DNA of 64,000 bases from Nitrospira sp. (GTDB lineage Bacteria > Nitrospirota > Nitrospiria > Nitrospirales > Nitrospiraceae): contig JADLEJ010000008.1 of NCBI GenBank assembly GCA_020846195.1, positions 62,001 to 126,000 of the forward strand. The letters are read 5' to 3'. Under the pieces are notes generated by a model. The model was not told where the DNA came from and searched no databases. It saw only the letters and a list, made by a program, of their open reading frames with translations. Shown piece by piece: positions 14,648 through 20,461 of this stretch; position 1 is the stretch's first letter; the number at the start of each line of letters is the position of its first letter. The translations under genes and the position numbers were made by a program.

Positions 14648-16651
14648 TCATGGCTTAGCGCTAAACGCGACTCGCAGGCCGCCAAAGATCGAGCGAATCG
14701 GGACCCCGGCGCTGGCCACCTCCTCGTACTTTTCATTGAAGAGATTTTCCGCGCGCAGATACACCTGCACCTGCTTGGTCACGTCGTACGTTGCCGCGAG
14801 CGACCAGACATCGAAGGCGCGCAGACTTTGATTATTTCCGGTAGTGTTGAACCGCGAGCCGATATACCGGCCCGTGACCGTGATCCACAACGGCGCAATA
14901 GGCTGATAACCAAGCACCATGCTCCACTGATCGACCGGCCATCGAGGGAGCCGCGCCGCCGTATCCAAATCCCTGGTCAACGTATTCGTATACTGCGCCT
15001 GGAAGGTCACCCCTCGAAGAAACTGCCGCTCGCTGGTATAGGCATATGACAGACTGGCCTCCCAGCCCTTCGTCGAAGCATCGCCAAGTTGCTGCGGACA
15101 GAACCCGAACGTGCTGAAGGGCGCGCAAAATACCGGATCGTTTGTGGTCACGATCAAATTGCGGTAACGATTCCAAAAGAAGCCTCCACTGAGCTTGAGG
15201 GACTTGGAGAGAAAGAACTGATCGATCCCCACATCCATGCTCTGGCTTTTCTCAGGACCGAGATTCGGATTGCCGAAATTGGGAAAGTACAACTCATTCA
15301 TGCTTGGAGCGCGGAAACCCGTTGAATAGCTCGTGCGGAGCTTCGTGTCGGTCTCCTTGCTATAGTAGCCCCCCGTCAATCGATAGGTCGTGGCATTGCC
15401 GAATACATTGTAACTATCGTAGCGCACTCCCGCCGTTCCAAAGAAGCGATCCCAGAGGTTGACCTGAGCCTGGGCAAATCCCGCATTCGAGCTCAAGATT
15501 CGATTGGTCAAACCGGTGTCGTTTTCGCCCTGCTGCTCGCGAAACTGATAGCCACCACTCAGCAGCAGCATCTCGGTAATGCGAAAGTCATGTTGCCATT
15601 CGATCCGGTTGGACAACACACGCGTCTCATTCGGCGAGCCAAAGGGAGTGCTGAGCACGTTCGTAGCGAGACTGCGCTGGACCGTGCCGGGCAAGAACAA
15701 CGACGCCTCCTGCGCCCGCGAGAGGGTCAGCTTCTGGGACCACCATTCCGTTAACGGCTGTCGATAGCTGCCGCTGAAAATATAATCCTGGCTCCGCATC
15801 TTCGATCCGTAGACTTCTGCCGGAGATGTTGCCGAGATGCTGTCGAGGGCGACATCCGAATTGGTCCATCTGAAATTGAAGTCCAGACGCCCATCTTTCG
15901 GCAGATCCACGCCCACGCGAGCGGAGCCGGTCCAGTTGCGATAAGAATCCCGCTCCGTGGCGCCGCGCCGATAGTTCACCGCGGAAAAGCTGGAGCTATC
16001 CCAACGAGACAGCGCCAGGCTGTAATCCACAATTCCCTGCTTGCCCGAGACCGTCCCGCCTTCACGCACCGTGGTAAACGATCCGTACTCAAGGAAGGCG
16101 CCCACAGTCGGTGGCCCCTGCCCTTTTTTCGTGGTGATATTGATGACCCCACCCATCGCATCCGATCCATACAACATGCTCTGCGCGCCCCGGAGGATTT
16201 CGATCCGTTCGATGTTGTCGGTCGTCAGATTAGCAAAATTGTACCCGCCGGCCGTCGCGCTATTGACGATAGCGCCATCGATGATCACCAAGGTTTGCGA
16301 TGAACTGCCGCCGCGGATTCTGATGCTCGCATCCGTTCCAGGGCCGCCATTTGAAAACGCCGCCACCCCTTGCGCGAGCCGCAGCGCATCCATCACGGTT
16401 CGGAGATTTTGTTTTTTCATATCCTCGGCCGTGATGACCTCCACCGCGCTGGTGACCTGCGTCACTGGAATCGGCGTTTTCGTCGCGCTGACGACGACCT
16501 CGGGCGTCTCAATGATATCGGCCTGAGCGGCGTCGGCGACAACAGCATCCGTCGCATCAGTCGCCACGGCAGCGTCTTGAGCGAGGGCCGCTCCTGCAGG
16601 CAGGCTCAGAAGGCAGGCACACAACAACCAGCAGACACGTAACAACGGCAT
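14648..16651 (-). CDS. btuB: TonB-dependent cobalamin receptor BtuB
   Basis: A 667-residue outer-membrane receptor. A signal peptide ending at ALA (about residue 24) is followed by an acidic linker and a TonB-box-like EVVVSATKTPIP. The plug domain (about 65-175) contains RIRGGSSSQTLVIIDG and IERIEILRGAQSMLYGSDAMGGVINITTKK. A 22-strand-type barrel region ends in an aromatic-poor tail, LRVAFSAKP. A cobalamin riboswitch directly upstream and cbiA directly downstream fix the substrate as cobalamin or a related corrinoid. The ribosome site AAGGGAG lies seven bases before the ATG. Confidence 0.95.
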   Translation of the reverse strand: MPLLRVCWLLCACLLSLPAGAALAQDAAVATDATDAVVADAAQADIIETPEVVVSATKTPIPVTQVTSAVEVITAEDMKKQNLRTVMDALRLAQGVAAFSNGGPGTDASIRIRGGSSSQTLVIIDGAIVNSATAGGYNFANLTTDNIERIEILRGAQSMLYGSDAMGGVINITTKKGQGPPTVGAFLEYGSFTTVREGGTVSGKQGIVDYSLALSRWDSSSFSAVNYRRGATERDSYRNWTGSARVGVDLPKDGRLDFNFRWTNSDVALDSISATSPAEVYGSKMRSQDYIFSGSYRQPLTEWWSQKLTLSRAQEASLFLPGTVQRSLATNVLSTPFGSPNETRVLSNRIEWQHDFRITEMLLLSGGYQFREQQGENDTGLTNRILSSNAGFAQAQVNLWDRFFGTAGVRYDSYNVFGNATTYRLTGGYYSKETDTKLRTSYSTGFRAPSMNELYFPNFGNPNLGPEKSQSMDVGIDQFFLSKSLKLSGGFFWNRYRNLIVTTNDPVFCAPFSTFGFCPQQLGDASTKGWEASLSYAYTSERQFLRGVTFQAQYTNTLTRDLDTAARLPRWPVDQWSMVLGYQPIAPLWITVTGRYIGSRFNTTGNNQSLRAFDVWSLAATYDVTKQVQVYLRAENLFNEKYEEVASAGVPIRSIFGGLRVAFSAKP

Positions 16652-16694
16652 GACGAATCTCCCTTGCGCTCGAGGGGTTCAGTCGATTCGACAG

Positions 16695-16895
16695 CGGACT
16701 GGGTCTCCTGACTTGCGGATCGTCGCGGCTCTGCGCCTTCCCATGCGCCAAGGCGCACAGTGGCATTGTGCAGAGCTACTCCCCGCTGACAGTGGCGGCA
16801 CCGTGATGGATTTGCACCATCTTCCCCGTCACCCGCGTCGTTTCTTCAAAACGCTCTTTCCTCGCGATGATACCGTCCCCCAACAGGCACGGTTC
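16695..16895 (-). promoter_or_regulatory. Cobalamin riboswitch upstream of btuB
   Basis: Read on the minus strand, the leader has the conserved cobalamin aptamer elements: GGTGCAAATCC, GCCGCCACTGTCAGCGGGGAG, a GCCACTG B12-box, GGGAAGGCGCAGAGCC and the closing GTCAGGAGACC. Downstream, CCCCT can pair with the AAGGGAG ribosome site of btuB, and no T-run follows. Control is therefore probably at translation initiation. High adenosylcobalamin should repress btuB and the genes behind it. Confidence 0.93.
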
Positions 16896-16925
16896 CGTGG
16901 CTGGGGACATGGCCACTGAACCTGT

Positions 16926-17807
16926 TTATACGCGGCTCGATACAGACGGCATCGTCACTCGCGGCAGTCCGCTGTGGGGATGCGCATCCACGACGACCTC
17001 GCAGCCATACACCATTTGCAAGACCTCTTCACGGATCGTCTCGGCAGGCGTGCCGACCTGGAAGACTTGGCCTTCTTTCAACATGACCAACCGATCGCAG
17101 AGCTGGCTGGCGACATTCAGATCGTGCGAGACGATGACCACGGTCAGCGCCCGCTCGCGATTGAGCCGGCGGATCAATCCGCAGAGGTCGATCTGATGAT
17201 TGATGTCGAGAAAGGCCATTGGCTCGTCGAGCAAGAGCACGGTGGACTCCTGCGCCAAGGCTCTGGCGAGCATCACCCGCTGGCGCTCGCCACCCGAGAG
17301 ATCCGTCACCAACCGGTCGGCAAACGCGACGACATCCGTATCCACCATGGCACGATGAGCCACCAGCAGATCGTCGGCCGATTCATCCCCCATTCCCAGA
17401 TTCCACCAGCCCTGGCGCCGGCGCGGGAACCGCCCCATAAGGACTGTCTCAGCCACCGTGAACGGAAAGGCTTGCGTAAATTCCTGCGGCACGACCGCGA
17501 CCATCTTCGCCAGCGCGCGCGGCTCAAGCCGATCGATCGATTGCCCGGCTACCTGAATGGCGCCCAAAGCCGGTCGCAATAACCCAGCCAGCAACTTCAA
17601 GAGCGACGACTTTCCCGATCCGTTCGGGCCGACAATCCCCAAGATCTCTCCCGGCTCAGCGGCAAACGATACGGCATCGACGGTCCAGGCGCGCCCAGAC
17701 TGGCCAGACTGGTCTGATCGATAGCGAAACGACACCCCTTCGACCGCGATGGCTGAACGGATCGAGCAGGGTTGCGGCATTGCGCAGGTCTCCGTAGGCG
17801 TCGGCAT
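16926..17807 (-). CDS. btuD: Cobalamin ABC transporter ATP-binding protein BtuD
   Basis: A 293-residue ATPase. It has Walker A GPNGSGKSSLLK near residue 60, the signature LSGGERQRVMLARAL, Walker B VLLLDEPMAFLDI and the switch histidine in VIVSHDLNVA. It belongs to the FecE/BtuD class of importers. The start lies just past the btuC stop in the btuFCD order. The link to B12 rests on the riboswitch at the head of this transcription unit, since FecE-type ATPases are also used for iron-siderophores. The 20 residues after the start carry no recognisable motif. Confidence 0.9.
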   Translation of the reverse strand: MPTPTETCAMPQPCSIRSAIAVEGVSFRYRSDQSGQSGRAWTVDAVSFAAEPGEILGIVGPNGSGKSSLLKLLAGLLRPALGAIQVAGQSIDRLEPRALAKMVAVVPQEFTQAFPFTVAETVLMGRFPRRRQGWWNLGMGDESADDLLVAHRAMVDTDVVAFADRLVTDLSGGERQRVMLARALAQESTVLLLDEPMAFLDINHQIDLCGLIRRLNRERALTVVIVSHDLNVASQLCDRLVMLKEGQVFQVGTPAETIREEVLQMVYGCEVVVDAHPHSGLPRVTMPSVSSRV

Positions 17808-17808
17808 G

Positions 17809-18957
17809 TCAGATCATCCGGTCTTTCCGCCACAGCAGGAGATAGAGAAAGAACGGCCCGCCGGCGAGAGCGGTGACAATGCCCACGGGAATTTCGGCCG
17901 GCGCGAACATCGTCCTGGCGATCGTATCGGAGACAACCAAAAACATGCCTCCGACCAATGCGGAAGCCGGCAACAACAGGCGATGATCGGATCCGATCAT
18001 CATGCGCACGGCGTGAGGCACGACCATGCCGACAAACCCCATCATGCCGCTCACCGACACCACCGCGCCGGTGATCAGCGCCGTCAACACATAGAGCTGT
18101 TTCTTCACACGCTCCGTGTCGATGCCGAGCGATCGCGCCGTCTCTTCTCCTTGCGTCAGCACGTTCAGCACCTGCGCTTTATGGATCAACACCGCGGACA
18201 CGAACAGCACGTAGATCGCGATGACACCCAGCGTCGGATAGCCTGGCGCCATCAGCGAGCCCATCAACCAGGCGATGAGACCCGCCGACCGGTTGGGCTC
18301 CATGATCGACGTAATAAACATGATCAGCGCGGTGAGAATCGCGTTCAGAATGACGCCAGCCAGCAATAGACTGTGGATGGGGAGCCGCCCCTGCGACTGC
18401 GCCAATCGATAGATCAGCGCCAGCGCACAGAGTCCTCCGATAAATCCAAAGAGAGGCAAGAGGGGCAGCAACAGCACGGTTGCGCCAATTCCCAGCAACA
18501 TGGCAATGGCCGCGCCCAATGCTGCGCCGCTAGAGACGCCCAGCACATAGGGGTCCGCCAGCGGATTTCTCAAGAGCGCTTGCAGCGTGACGCCGACTGC
18601 CGCCAGCGCGCTCCCGACGAGAAATCCCATCAACACGCGCGGGAGCCTCACATGGAGAAAAATCACACTGCTGGTTTCGAGCGATGAGGCGTCGAGCGAT
18701 CCGGTGGTCAACAGGTGACCCAATGCCGCAAACGCATCCGCCAGCGATACGGACACTGCACCGACCTGGCTAGATAACAGGATGACGGCGGCGCTGGCCA
18801 GCAGAAGCCCAGTCAAGACCAGGCTCCATCGCCGGCGCGTCAACATGGCGCCAGTGCGATGCCAGTCCGCCTGTACGGTTTGTGCGGTTTGCCCGGAAAC
18901 AGACATCGCTCCGCCAGGCGCCTGCAGATGGGAGGGTGTCGCATGGCTGTTCGCCAT
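17809..18957 (-). CDS. btuC: Cobalamin ABC transporter permease BtuC (FecCD family)
   Basis: A polytopic membrane protein of about 382 residues with roughly ten helices. FecCD-family signatures include VRLPRVLMGFLVGSALAAVGVTLQALLRNPLADPYVLGVSSGAALGA in sections, GLIAWLMGS, ARSLGID, and GFVGMVVPHAVR before the last helices. I place the start at ATG 18957, a few bases after the btuF stop, because GAGGGG precedes it. The frame also opens at 18987. It pairs with BtuD and BtuF to move corrinoid across the inner membrane. Confidence 0.92.
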   Translation of the reverse strand: MANSHATPSHLQAPGGAMSVSGQTAQTVQADWHRTGAMLTRRRWSLVLTGLLLASAAVILLSSQVGAVSVSLADAFAALGHLLTTGSLDASSLETSSVIFLHVRLPRVLMGFLVGSALAAVGVTLQALLRNPLADPYVLGVSSGAALGAAIAMLLGIGATVLLLPLLPLFGFIGGLCALALIYRLAQSQGRLPIHSLLLAGVILNAILTALIMFITSIMEPNRSAGLIAWLMGSLMAPGYPTLGVIAIYVLFVSAVLIHKAQVLNVLTQGEETARSLGIDTERVKKQLYVLTALITGAVVSVSGMMGFVGMVVPHAVRMMIGSDHRLLLPASALVGGMFLVVSDTIARTMFAPAEIPVGIVTALAGGPFFLYLLLWRKDRMI

Positions 18958-18961
18958 TGCG

Positions 18962-19975
18962 CTAGCGCCCCTCGCTCGAACCGGCATTGCCCGGCCCAGC
19001 GTTCGAGGAGGGATGAAAGAGGTCGGCCAGCAGCTCCAGCGCTTGCCCGATTCTGGGGCCCGGACGATTAATCAGGTCGGCGGAAATCTGACGCAGATTG
19101 TTCTGCTTGACAGCGGTCAACGTCGTCCACTTCCGCCAGGCCTGCTGCTCGCTCTCGGAAATCCCCTCGGCCTTTCCGACTGGAAACAGGAGGATCTCCG
19201 GATTCTCCTGCAGCACCACCTCCATGCTGAGCCGCGGATAGGCCGTGGCACTCTTGGCGGCCACGTTGATACCGCCAGCCAGTGCAATCAATTGATCGAT
19301 GAAACTCCCCGGGCCAACGGTGATCAGCGGCGCGCTGTTCAAGACATAGAGCACTCGCACGGGCGTGACGCCCTGCGTTCGTGTCTTAATGCGGGCCATC
19401 TGCTGGCGCAGATCCATCCCGAGAGCCGTCGCTTCGGTCGAACGATCCAGCATCCGCCCTAATGTCTGGATATGCGCCAGCACGTCTTCGACGCTCTTCG
19501 CGGACAGGATAAAGACCGGAACTTTGAGCTGATCCAGCTTGCCGATCAGATCGGGCTTTAGAAACTCCTGCGGCGCCACAATTAAATCCGGCTGAAGCGC
19601 CACAAGCGATTCAAGATTCGGATTGGCGTATCCGACTTTCGCTTTCTGAGTGGCTTCGGGAGGATAGTCGCAAAACTGCGTGACCCCAACCACCTGCGCC
19701 CCTGCGCCGATCGCAAACAACATTTCCGTCACGCTCGGCGCCAGTGAAACAATCCGGCTCGGCGCTTTGGCCAAATAGACTCGGCGCCCCATGTCGTCGA
19801 TAAACGACCGCGACGACACATGCGCCATGAACGGCATACCCGTCAGGATGCCTTGCTGCCGCCGCTTCATGTCTGCACACTCTCCATCAACACAAGCCAA
19901 CGCCCTCGGCGCGTACGCCAGCAACGCGAGACAGACAAGACCCACTGCCACAAGATAGCGGCCATATCCGCGCAA
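18962..19975 (-). CDS. btuF: Periplasmic cobalamin-binding protein BtuF
   Basis: A periplasmic binding protein of about 337 residues with a signal peptide ending in PRALA. The BtuF/FepB fold shows PSRIVSLAPSVTEMLFAIG, DYPPEA and NLESLVALQPDLIVAPQ. It delivers corrinoid to BtuCD. No ATG fits. A TTG at 19990 opens the frame but lies inside the 3' arm of a terminator hairpin. The TTG at 19975 has GAGG nine bases upstream and still gives a full signal peptide, so I prefer it. If right, the hairpin hides the ribosome site as well as ending transcription. Confidence 0.88.
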   Translation of the reverse strand: MRGYGRYLVAVGLVCLALLAYAPRALACVDGECADMKRRQQGILTGMPFMAHVSSRSFIDDMGRRVYLAKAPSRIVSLAPSVTEMLFAIGAGAQVVGVTQFCDYPPEATQKAKVGYANPNLESLVALQPDLIVAPQEFLKPDLIGKLDQLKVPVFILSAKSVEDVLAHIQTLGRMLDRSTEATALGMDLRQQMARIKTRTQGVTPVRVLYVLNSAPLITVGPGSFIDQLIALAGGINVAAKSATAYPRLSMEVVLQENPEILLFPVGKAEGISESEQQAWRKWTTLTAVKQNNLRQISADLINRPGPRIGQALELLADLFHPSSNAGPGNAGSSEGR

Positions 19976-20014
19976 ATAAAAAATCCTCAAGGCCTGACAG
20001 AGACCTTGAGGATT
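19976..20014 (-). terminator. Riboswitch-associated intrinsic terminator at the btuF start
   Basis: On the minus strand AATCCTCAAGG (complement of 20004-20014) and CCTTGAGGATT (complement of 19982-19992) form an 11-bp stem with an 11-base loop. The run TTTTATTT follows. This is a textbook rho-independent terminator placed between the cobalamin aptamer and btuF. It is therefore the likely expression platform, and its 3' arm holds the GAGG of the btuF ribosome site. Confidence 0.8.
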
Positions 20015-20077
20015 GCACCCGCATCTTCATCCTCGCCTGTTCCCCAGCCCTCGAGGGAACGATGGTCAATTCATTGG

Positions 20078-20250
20078 GCAGGTCTTCTGGCTCATGGTTC
20101 ATCCTACTCCCCACGCCTTCCCATCCAGCGGCTGGACAGTGGCATTACCGGGTTTCGTCCCCATTCACAGCGGCGGGACCGCGAGGGATTCACACCCTCT
20201 TCCCTTACCCAGGAATCACATATTGTGGAGGCACAATAGGAGACCTTGCC
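20078..20250 (-). promoter_or_regulatory. Cobalamin riboswitch upstream of btuFCD
   Basis: Read on the minus strand, a closing stem GGCA-AGGTCT pairs with AGACCTGCC at the 3' end (20078-20086). Inside lie GGGAAGAGGGTGTGAATCCCTC, GCCGCTGTGAATGGGGACG, GCCACTG and GGGAAGGCGTGGGGAG. These are the conserved cobalamin aptamer elements. About 60 bases later comes the terminator at 19976-20014. Binding of adenosylcobalamin should favour termination and shut off the importer. Confidence 0.93.
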
Positions 20251-20254
20251 GAAT

Positions 20255-20262
20255 ATTGTCAA
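20255..20262 (-). promoter_or_regulatory. Candidate -10 region of the btuF riboswitch transcript
   Basis: TTGACAAT on the minus strand ends seven bases before the first base of the riboswitch closing stem (20250). GACAAT (20255-20260) is therefore best read as a -10 box, with start of transcription near 20250. TTGACA taken as a -35 box would put the start inside the aptamer stem. No clear -35 partner was found, so support is weak. Confidence 0.3.
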
Positions 20263-20461
20263 GTTCATTAATGGCCGGACGGCGTTCAATGCGCGATGGA
20301 CTCAGGCCGATCTTTTCCCTCCCCCACGAAAAGAACGGCCTCCCTATGCGAGGTTAGAAACAGCCCGCATCGGCATGGGCTTTGCTGACCTCTCTCGATT
20401 GAAACTCCAGATACGTCGCAGCCACTCGATTACACTCCGAACCACGAGGTCGCATCCATCC

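Follow-up and report, generated by a model that had tools for sequence, protein, structure and literature searches.

A vitamin B12 uptake locus of Nitrospira carries two cobalamin riboswitches with different predicted expression platforms

Here, we describe two cobalamin riboswitches at one vitamin B12 uptake locus of Nitrospira sp., found in a window of 64,000 nucleotides (contig JADLEJ010000008.1, positions 62,001 to 126,000). All coordinates below are positions in this window, and all features lie on its minus strand. The btuF leader is likely to act as a dual expression platform, combining transcription termination with a hidden ribosome site, and the btuB leader as a translation-only switch. 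A terminator-like hairpin follows the B12 box in 115 of 118 btuF relatives (terminator scan), whereas the 99 btuB leaders yielded no leader terminator and all 99 carry a hairpin at the ribosome site. A preliminary description of this DNA had proposed different platforms, with btuF acting by termination and btuB at translation. The difference stands, but the wording understates btuF, which fits the class known as "dual". For nitrite oxidizers, these predictions amount to a testable wiring of B12 uptake, in which the ABC transporter would be locked twice and the outer-membrane receptor would have a translational lock of its own.

The gene order on the minus strand is btuF, btuC, btuD, and btuB, followed by CbiA/CobB-like and CobA-like genes. 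The periplasmic B12-binding protein BtuF (18962..19975, 337 amino acids from a TTG start at 19975) carries a Pfam Peripla_BP_2 domain and a BtuF-like NCBIfam match that scores below the cut-off. It is followed by a btuC-like permease (17809..18987; Pfam FecCD; best NCBIfam match BtuC, below cut-off), a btuD-like ATPase (16926..17807; Pfam ABC_tran), and a btuB-like TonB-dependent receptor (14648..16651; Pfam Plug and TonB_dep_Rec; best NCBIfam match TonB-B12, below cut-off). Since the btuB aptamer begins only 37 nt after the end of btuD, btuB is probably co-transcribed from the btuF transcript, and a translation-level switch would thus give btuB its own control. A C/G-rich inverted repeat, CCCCAGCCACGGAACCGTGCCTGTTGGGG, also lies between btuD and the core of the btuB aptamer (16879-16907) and has no T-run.

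As proposed in the preliminary description, there are two cobalamin riboswitches at this locus. Against the Rfam covariance model RF00174 (gathering score 31.5), the btuF aptamer (20060..20263) scores 100.4 bits and the btuB aptamer (16683..16888) 93.2 bits. We regard both as real aptamers of the RF00174 class and predict that they bind corrinoids. The B12 box of the btuF aptamer, AGCCAGAAGACCTGCC, was located at 20077..20092 by motif scan and alignment. A promoter with a 10/12 match to the consensus (20233..20262) consists of TTGACA (20262-20257), an 18-nt spacer, and TATTGT (20238-20233). A crude scan detected the pattern TTGACA-18-TA(TTG/GAG/AAG)T ahead of the aptamer in 63 of 117 relatives, compared with 1 of 484 controls inside genes. 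This conserved promoter overlaps the 5′ portion of the Rfam match for btuF (20263-20242), where many of the model's pairs are non-standard. Thus, the btuF leader RNA probably starts near 20226, and the 5′ ~37 nt of the Rfam span are probably not transcribed. Given the same overlap, we rejected the P1/P2 arms that Rfam places at 20263-20242 as part of the transcript; P1 of the btuF aptamer would instead be made from a later segment. This revises the likely 5′ end of the btuF riboswitch.

The P6 arm of many btuF aptamers, upstream of the B12 box, carries long and variable insertions (among them those at loci L044, L050, L066, and L115), some of which contain inverted repeats. This suggests that repeat elements settle in a permissive arm of the aptamer. 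At another locus (L312; G161:C6:88646-89260), two cobalamin aptamers lie ~220 nt apart and might form a tandem riboswitch.

Downstream of the btuF aptamer is an intrinsic terminator (19978..20014) comprising a 14-bp hairpin (20014-19982) and a T-run (19983-19978). Its arms, 20014-20001 and 19995-19982, form 14 pairs, one of them G-U, before TTTTTT. The hairpin has a folding energy of -21.2 kcal/mol (z = -6.1), and none of 200 shuffled sequences folded as well. The preliminary description had recognized both hairpin and T-run, although its count of 11 bp was too low. To compare relatives, 120 btuF loci of the Nitrospira family were fetched and 113 leaders aligned, including L078, the central part of which is masked by N. 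The aligned leaders share one order: B12 box, P13 hairpin, GRGGRTGA, GGGTGCAATCCTCA, and terminator. In nearly all relatives, the terminator hairpin begins at a constant ~60 nt past the B12 box. Among 97 distinct btuF leaders, 11 of the 14 terminator pairs are formed in every leader, and the ninth pair is A-U, G-U, or G-C.

The 3′ arm of this terminator also contains the btuF ribosome site, GAGG (19985..19988), which precedes the TTG codon at 19975-19973 by 9 nt. An in-frame start codon, TTG or sometimes ATG, lies after the T-tract, 6-11 nt past GRGG, in 96 of 104 distinct btuF leaders, compared with 5 and 2 leaders in the other two frames. The length of the T-tract shifts among relatives and the start keeps its frame, with a spacing of 9 at 56 loci and of 10 at 41. 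Because both the frame and the distance from GRGG are kept, this comparison places the BtuF start at TTG 19975, with the terminator predicted to cover its ribosome site as well. The proposal that the hairpin's 3′ arm holds the ribosome site of a TTG start is thereby upheld, and a start well downstream of the hairpin is not what the relatives indicate. A TTG inside the hairpin (19990) was rejected as the BtuF start, being out of frame in the many relatives with spacing 10. The start at 19975, which corrects the likely BtuF start, yields an N-terminus that resembles a signal peptide by eye (MRGYGRYLVAVGLVCLALLAYAPRALA).

Barrick and Breaker (2007) named this arrangement "dual transcription and translation attenuation", with the rule that the terminator is so near the open reading frame that its 3′ side holds the ribosome site, with ≤10 nt to the start (PMC2258182). 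The btuF leader has the same structural features, namely a terminator, a ribosome site in its 3′ side, and 6 nt from hairpin to start, and on this sequence evidence it would be assigned to the dual class. In that earlier survey, the class was assigned by rule to single leaders (PMC2258182). Here, the assignment is backed in addition by the frame of the start codon, the lack of a second ribosome site, ~100 relatives, and a module sequence that is conserved across a phylum.

An alternative is that the btuF platform is purely transcriptional. GRGG would then serve the terminator alone, read-through RNA would arise only once the antiterminator had freed the arm, and the hiding of the ribosome site would have no physiological role. 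The GRGGATT arm is indeed kept where the same module precedes genes other than btuF that have a ribosome site of their own (21 of 33 copies). It is also unchanged at 13 loci of the family where 44-175 nt separate the hairpin from the extrapolated BtuF start; among family members with a separation of ~90-175 nt, some have no TTG. Because the arm persists in these loci, its sequence appears to be set by the switch module and not by translation, and btuF would have put the arm to a second use. However, a further strong ribosome site within 60 nt past the T-tract is present in only 5 of 103 btuF leaders, read-through RNA must therefore use the terminator arm to translate btuF, and the frame and distance of the start are kept as described. 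We thus consider a purely transcriptional btuF platform unlikely.

The btuB leader differs in its sequence, its hairpin, and the placement of its ribosome site. Its ribosome site, AAGGGAG (16665-16659), is partly contained in a P13 hairpin (16661..16676) in which CCCT (16676-16673) pairs with AGGG (16664-16661), enclosing the L13 loop CG(A)GC (16672-16668). The corresponding hairpin, CCCYT-CG(A/T)GN...AAGGG, occurs in 99/99 relatives, with its 3′ arm in the ribosome site and a start codon within 16 nt. In the window, the hairpin has only four pairs and folds no better than shuffled sequences (z = 0.10). The case for it thus rests on the 99 relatives, and these bear out the earlier suggestion that a C-rich strand might mask AAGGGAG. 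The absence of a T-run, also described previously, holds for the region after the btuB aptamer in the window. Terminator-like matches were obtained in 11 of 99 btuB leaders, but the six listed all lie past the start codon, in coding sequence, and the matches were not accepted as leader terminators. The btuB leader thus has a kissing loop with a bulged base, a ribosome-site hairpin, and no terminator, and the 3′ arm of its P13 directly contributes to the ribosome site. This anatomy points to a translational cobalamin riboswitch.

Both leaders might still use one mechanism, with the missing btuB T-run being incidental and btuB transcription ending by Rho. Translational riboswitches can be coupled to Rho-dependent termination, the subject of a paper by Bastet et al. 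(2017) that is cited in PMC12121620. However, any action of Rho would only follow from the block in translation, and the two platforms are distinct in sequence, hairpin, and ribosome-site placement over ~100 relatives each, which makes a shared mechanism very improbable. Transcriptional and non-transcriptional cobalamin riboswitches are known to coexist in one Gram-negative genome (TaRTLEt, PMC12121620). As in those mixed cases, a transcriptional type here accompanies one without a transcriptional signal. What differs is that both switches belong to a single locus and that their division into two types is maintained across a family.

The kissing loops of the two leaders are complementary. In btuF, loop L5 (20174..20178) is UCCCG, identical to the published L5 consensus (PMC10653944). 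Its partner L13, CG(A)GG (20053-20049, with A20051 bulged), caps the P13 hairpin GUUCCC/GGGAAC (20039..20060). The lower P13 pair covaries, being paired in 91 of 93 leaders compared with 62.9 in shuffles (0 of 2000 shuffles matched). At the 87 btuF loci where L5 was cleanly read, UCCCG occurs with CG(A/T)GG; L5 picks at some other loci were dropped as spurious motif matches arising from long P6 inserts. In btuB, L5 is UGCCG (16800-16796). Among its relatives, UGCCG occurs with CGAGC, CGAGU, or CGUGC (94 loci), and UACCG exclusively with CGAGU (5/5 loci). L5 and L13 are thus complementary in all cleanly read cases (87 btuF, 99/99 btuB) when the third base of L13 is treated as bulged, a feature known from env8HyCbl (PMC10653944). 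Furthermore, the second L5 base and its L13 partner differ together between the paralogous btuF and btuB leaders.

Between P13 and the terminator, the btuF leader contains a candidate antiterminator hairpin (20008..20034), in which GAGGAU (20034-20029) pairs with AUCCUC (20013-20008) in the 5′ arm of the terminator around the conserved loop GAAG...GGGUGCA. Across 194 distinct modules, GRGGRU:AUCCYC forms 5.9 of 6 pairs, compared with 2.0-4.0 in shifted registers. Compensatory changes contribute less to the case for this pairing than conservation does. Where the antiterminator has an A-U pair, the terminator of most relatives has G-U, which would help the two structures compete.

How the aptamer would be coupled to this antiterminator is the weak point of the btuF model. 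P13 and GAGGAU:AUCCUC share no bases and are compatible in simple folds, so the removal of the antiterminator by B12 is not explained by plain secondary structure. An extended P13 that captures GAGGAU performed no better than shuffled sequence (0.41 paired, compared with 0.53 when the 5′ flank was shuffled) and was rejected. In the corrinoid riboswitch of Priestia megaterium metE, which likewise has a kissing loop, P13, antiterminator, and terminator, the antiterminator strand is supplied by the 3′ side of P13 (PMC10653944). In btuF, by contrast, GAGGAU, the antiterminator strand with the best conservation, is located downstream of P13. The coupling would therefore differ from that of P. megaterium or involve the weaker pairing CUGGGGA:UCCUCAG, which overlaps P13 and forms 7 pairs in 60 of 97 leaders and 6 in 35 (-4.6 kcal/mol in the window). 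As an antiterminator from the 3′ side of P13, this pairing falls short of the combined strength of P13 and the local hairpin, and we retain it as a bare possibility. Also very improbable is a btuF hairpin that attenuates constitutively, with B12 exerting its effect at btuF mainly through translation: the compatibility of P13 with the antiterminator leaves B12 control of termination unexplained, but a partner for the terminator 5′ arm that is conserved in 194 modules would be pointless without regulated termination.

For the dual btuF platform, we infer an OFF switch. On B12 binding, the L5-L13 kissing loop would hold P13, the GAGGAU:AUCCUC antiterminator would be lost, and the 14-bp terminator would form. 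RNA polymerase would then stop, and any read-through RNA would have the GAGG of TTG 19975 paired within this hairpin. When B12 is absent, the antiterminator would take the 5′ arm of the terminator, allowing read-through and freeing the btuF ribosome site. At btuB, B12-dependent kissing would stabilize P13, whose 3′ arm is in the AAGGGAG ribosome site, and would affect translation only.

The btuF platform is one copy of a module, GRGGRUGA...GGGUGCAAUCCYCARGG...GRGGAUUUUUU, that is conserved across Nitrospirota. Its 17-mer core, GGGTGCAATCCYCARGG, occurs in 134 of 395 Nitrospirota genomes and 50 of 169 genera, and the reversed pattern in none. When a longer module pattern was scanned over 84,980 species genomes, 79 of the 80 loci among the matches listed were Nitrospirota or Nitrospirota-type by title. 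The one copy among these matches titled outside the phylum (L207) comes from a Syntrophobacterales MAG and precedes a CobU-like open reading frame; it could be a transfer or a misbinned contig. The module was not found in the viral contigs searched. A B12 box lies upstream of 135 of the 146 distinct copies examined. Most of the other 11 look truncated or diverged, and at least three are chance matches.

The module also precedes genes other than btuF, whose products look by eye like ThiC-type proteins, CobU, CobA, and methyltransferases. Three AUCCCC copies all have a GGGGAU partner. One of them (L001, positions 1-376; G000:C17:184-376, minus strand) belongs to a third cobalamin riboswitch of the genome from which the window comes, on a contig that stops at the terminator. 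At L225, this type of module precedes a methyltransferase-like gene. Of four ATCCCC matches fetched, two (L300 and L301) lack a terminator and were discarded as chance.

Rapid divergence is usually assumed for expression platforms. What is new here is a module that is conserved, reused, and recruited as a ribosome site; the individual riboswitch claims are ordinary. A literature search for such a Nitrospirae module led to a review of cobalamin biosynthesis, which, judged by title and abstract, does not deal with one. None of the pairings identified accounts for the conservation of the loop GAAG...GGGUGCA. One tentative reading is that the module is a Nitrospirota-specific expression platform whose loop might be read by RNA polymerase or a Nus factor, by the ribosome, or through a tertiary contact with the aptamer, with btuF having recruited the module as a ribosome site. 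An aptamer contact is considered because part of GRGGRUGA(A)G...GGGUGCA-AUCCYCARGG...GRGGAUUUUUU, the stretch GGGUGCAAUCC (20020-20010 in the window, and relatives), resembles the conserved L4 motif of the aptamer, GGUGNNAAUCC; this resemblance could be chance or mimicry. A module kept letter for letter across a phylum, before several B12 genes, provides a natural test set for kissing-loop control of termination, a step that the literature calls unresolved.

A different cobalamin riboswitch precedes a CbiX-like gene at 13 loci (L009, L013, L016-L019, L021, L022, L024-L026, L028, and L031). Downstream of its aptamer, a hairpin with GGAGG in its 3′ arm is followed by a T-run and an ATG. At three of these loci, inspected by eye, the ATG opens a short reading frame whose end overlaps the CbiX-like gene in an ATGA. 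This leader is an independent terminator-plus-ribosome-site design, possibly with translational coupling.
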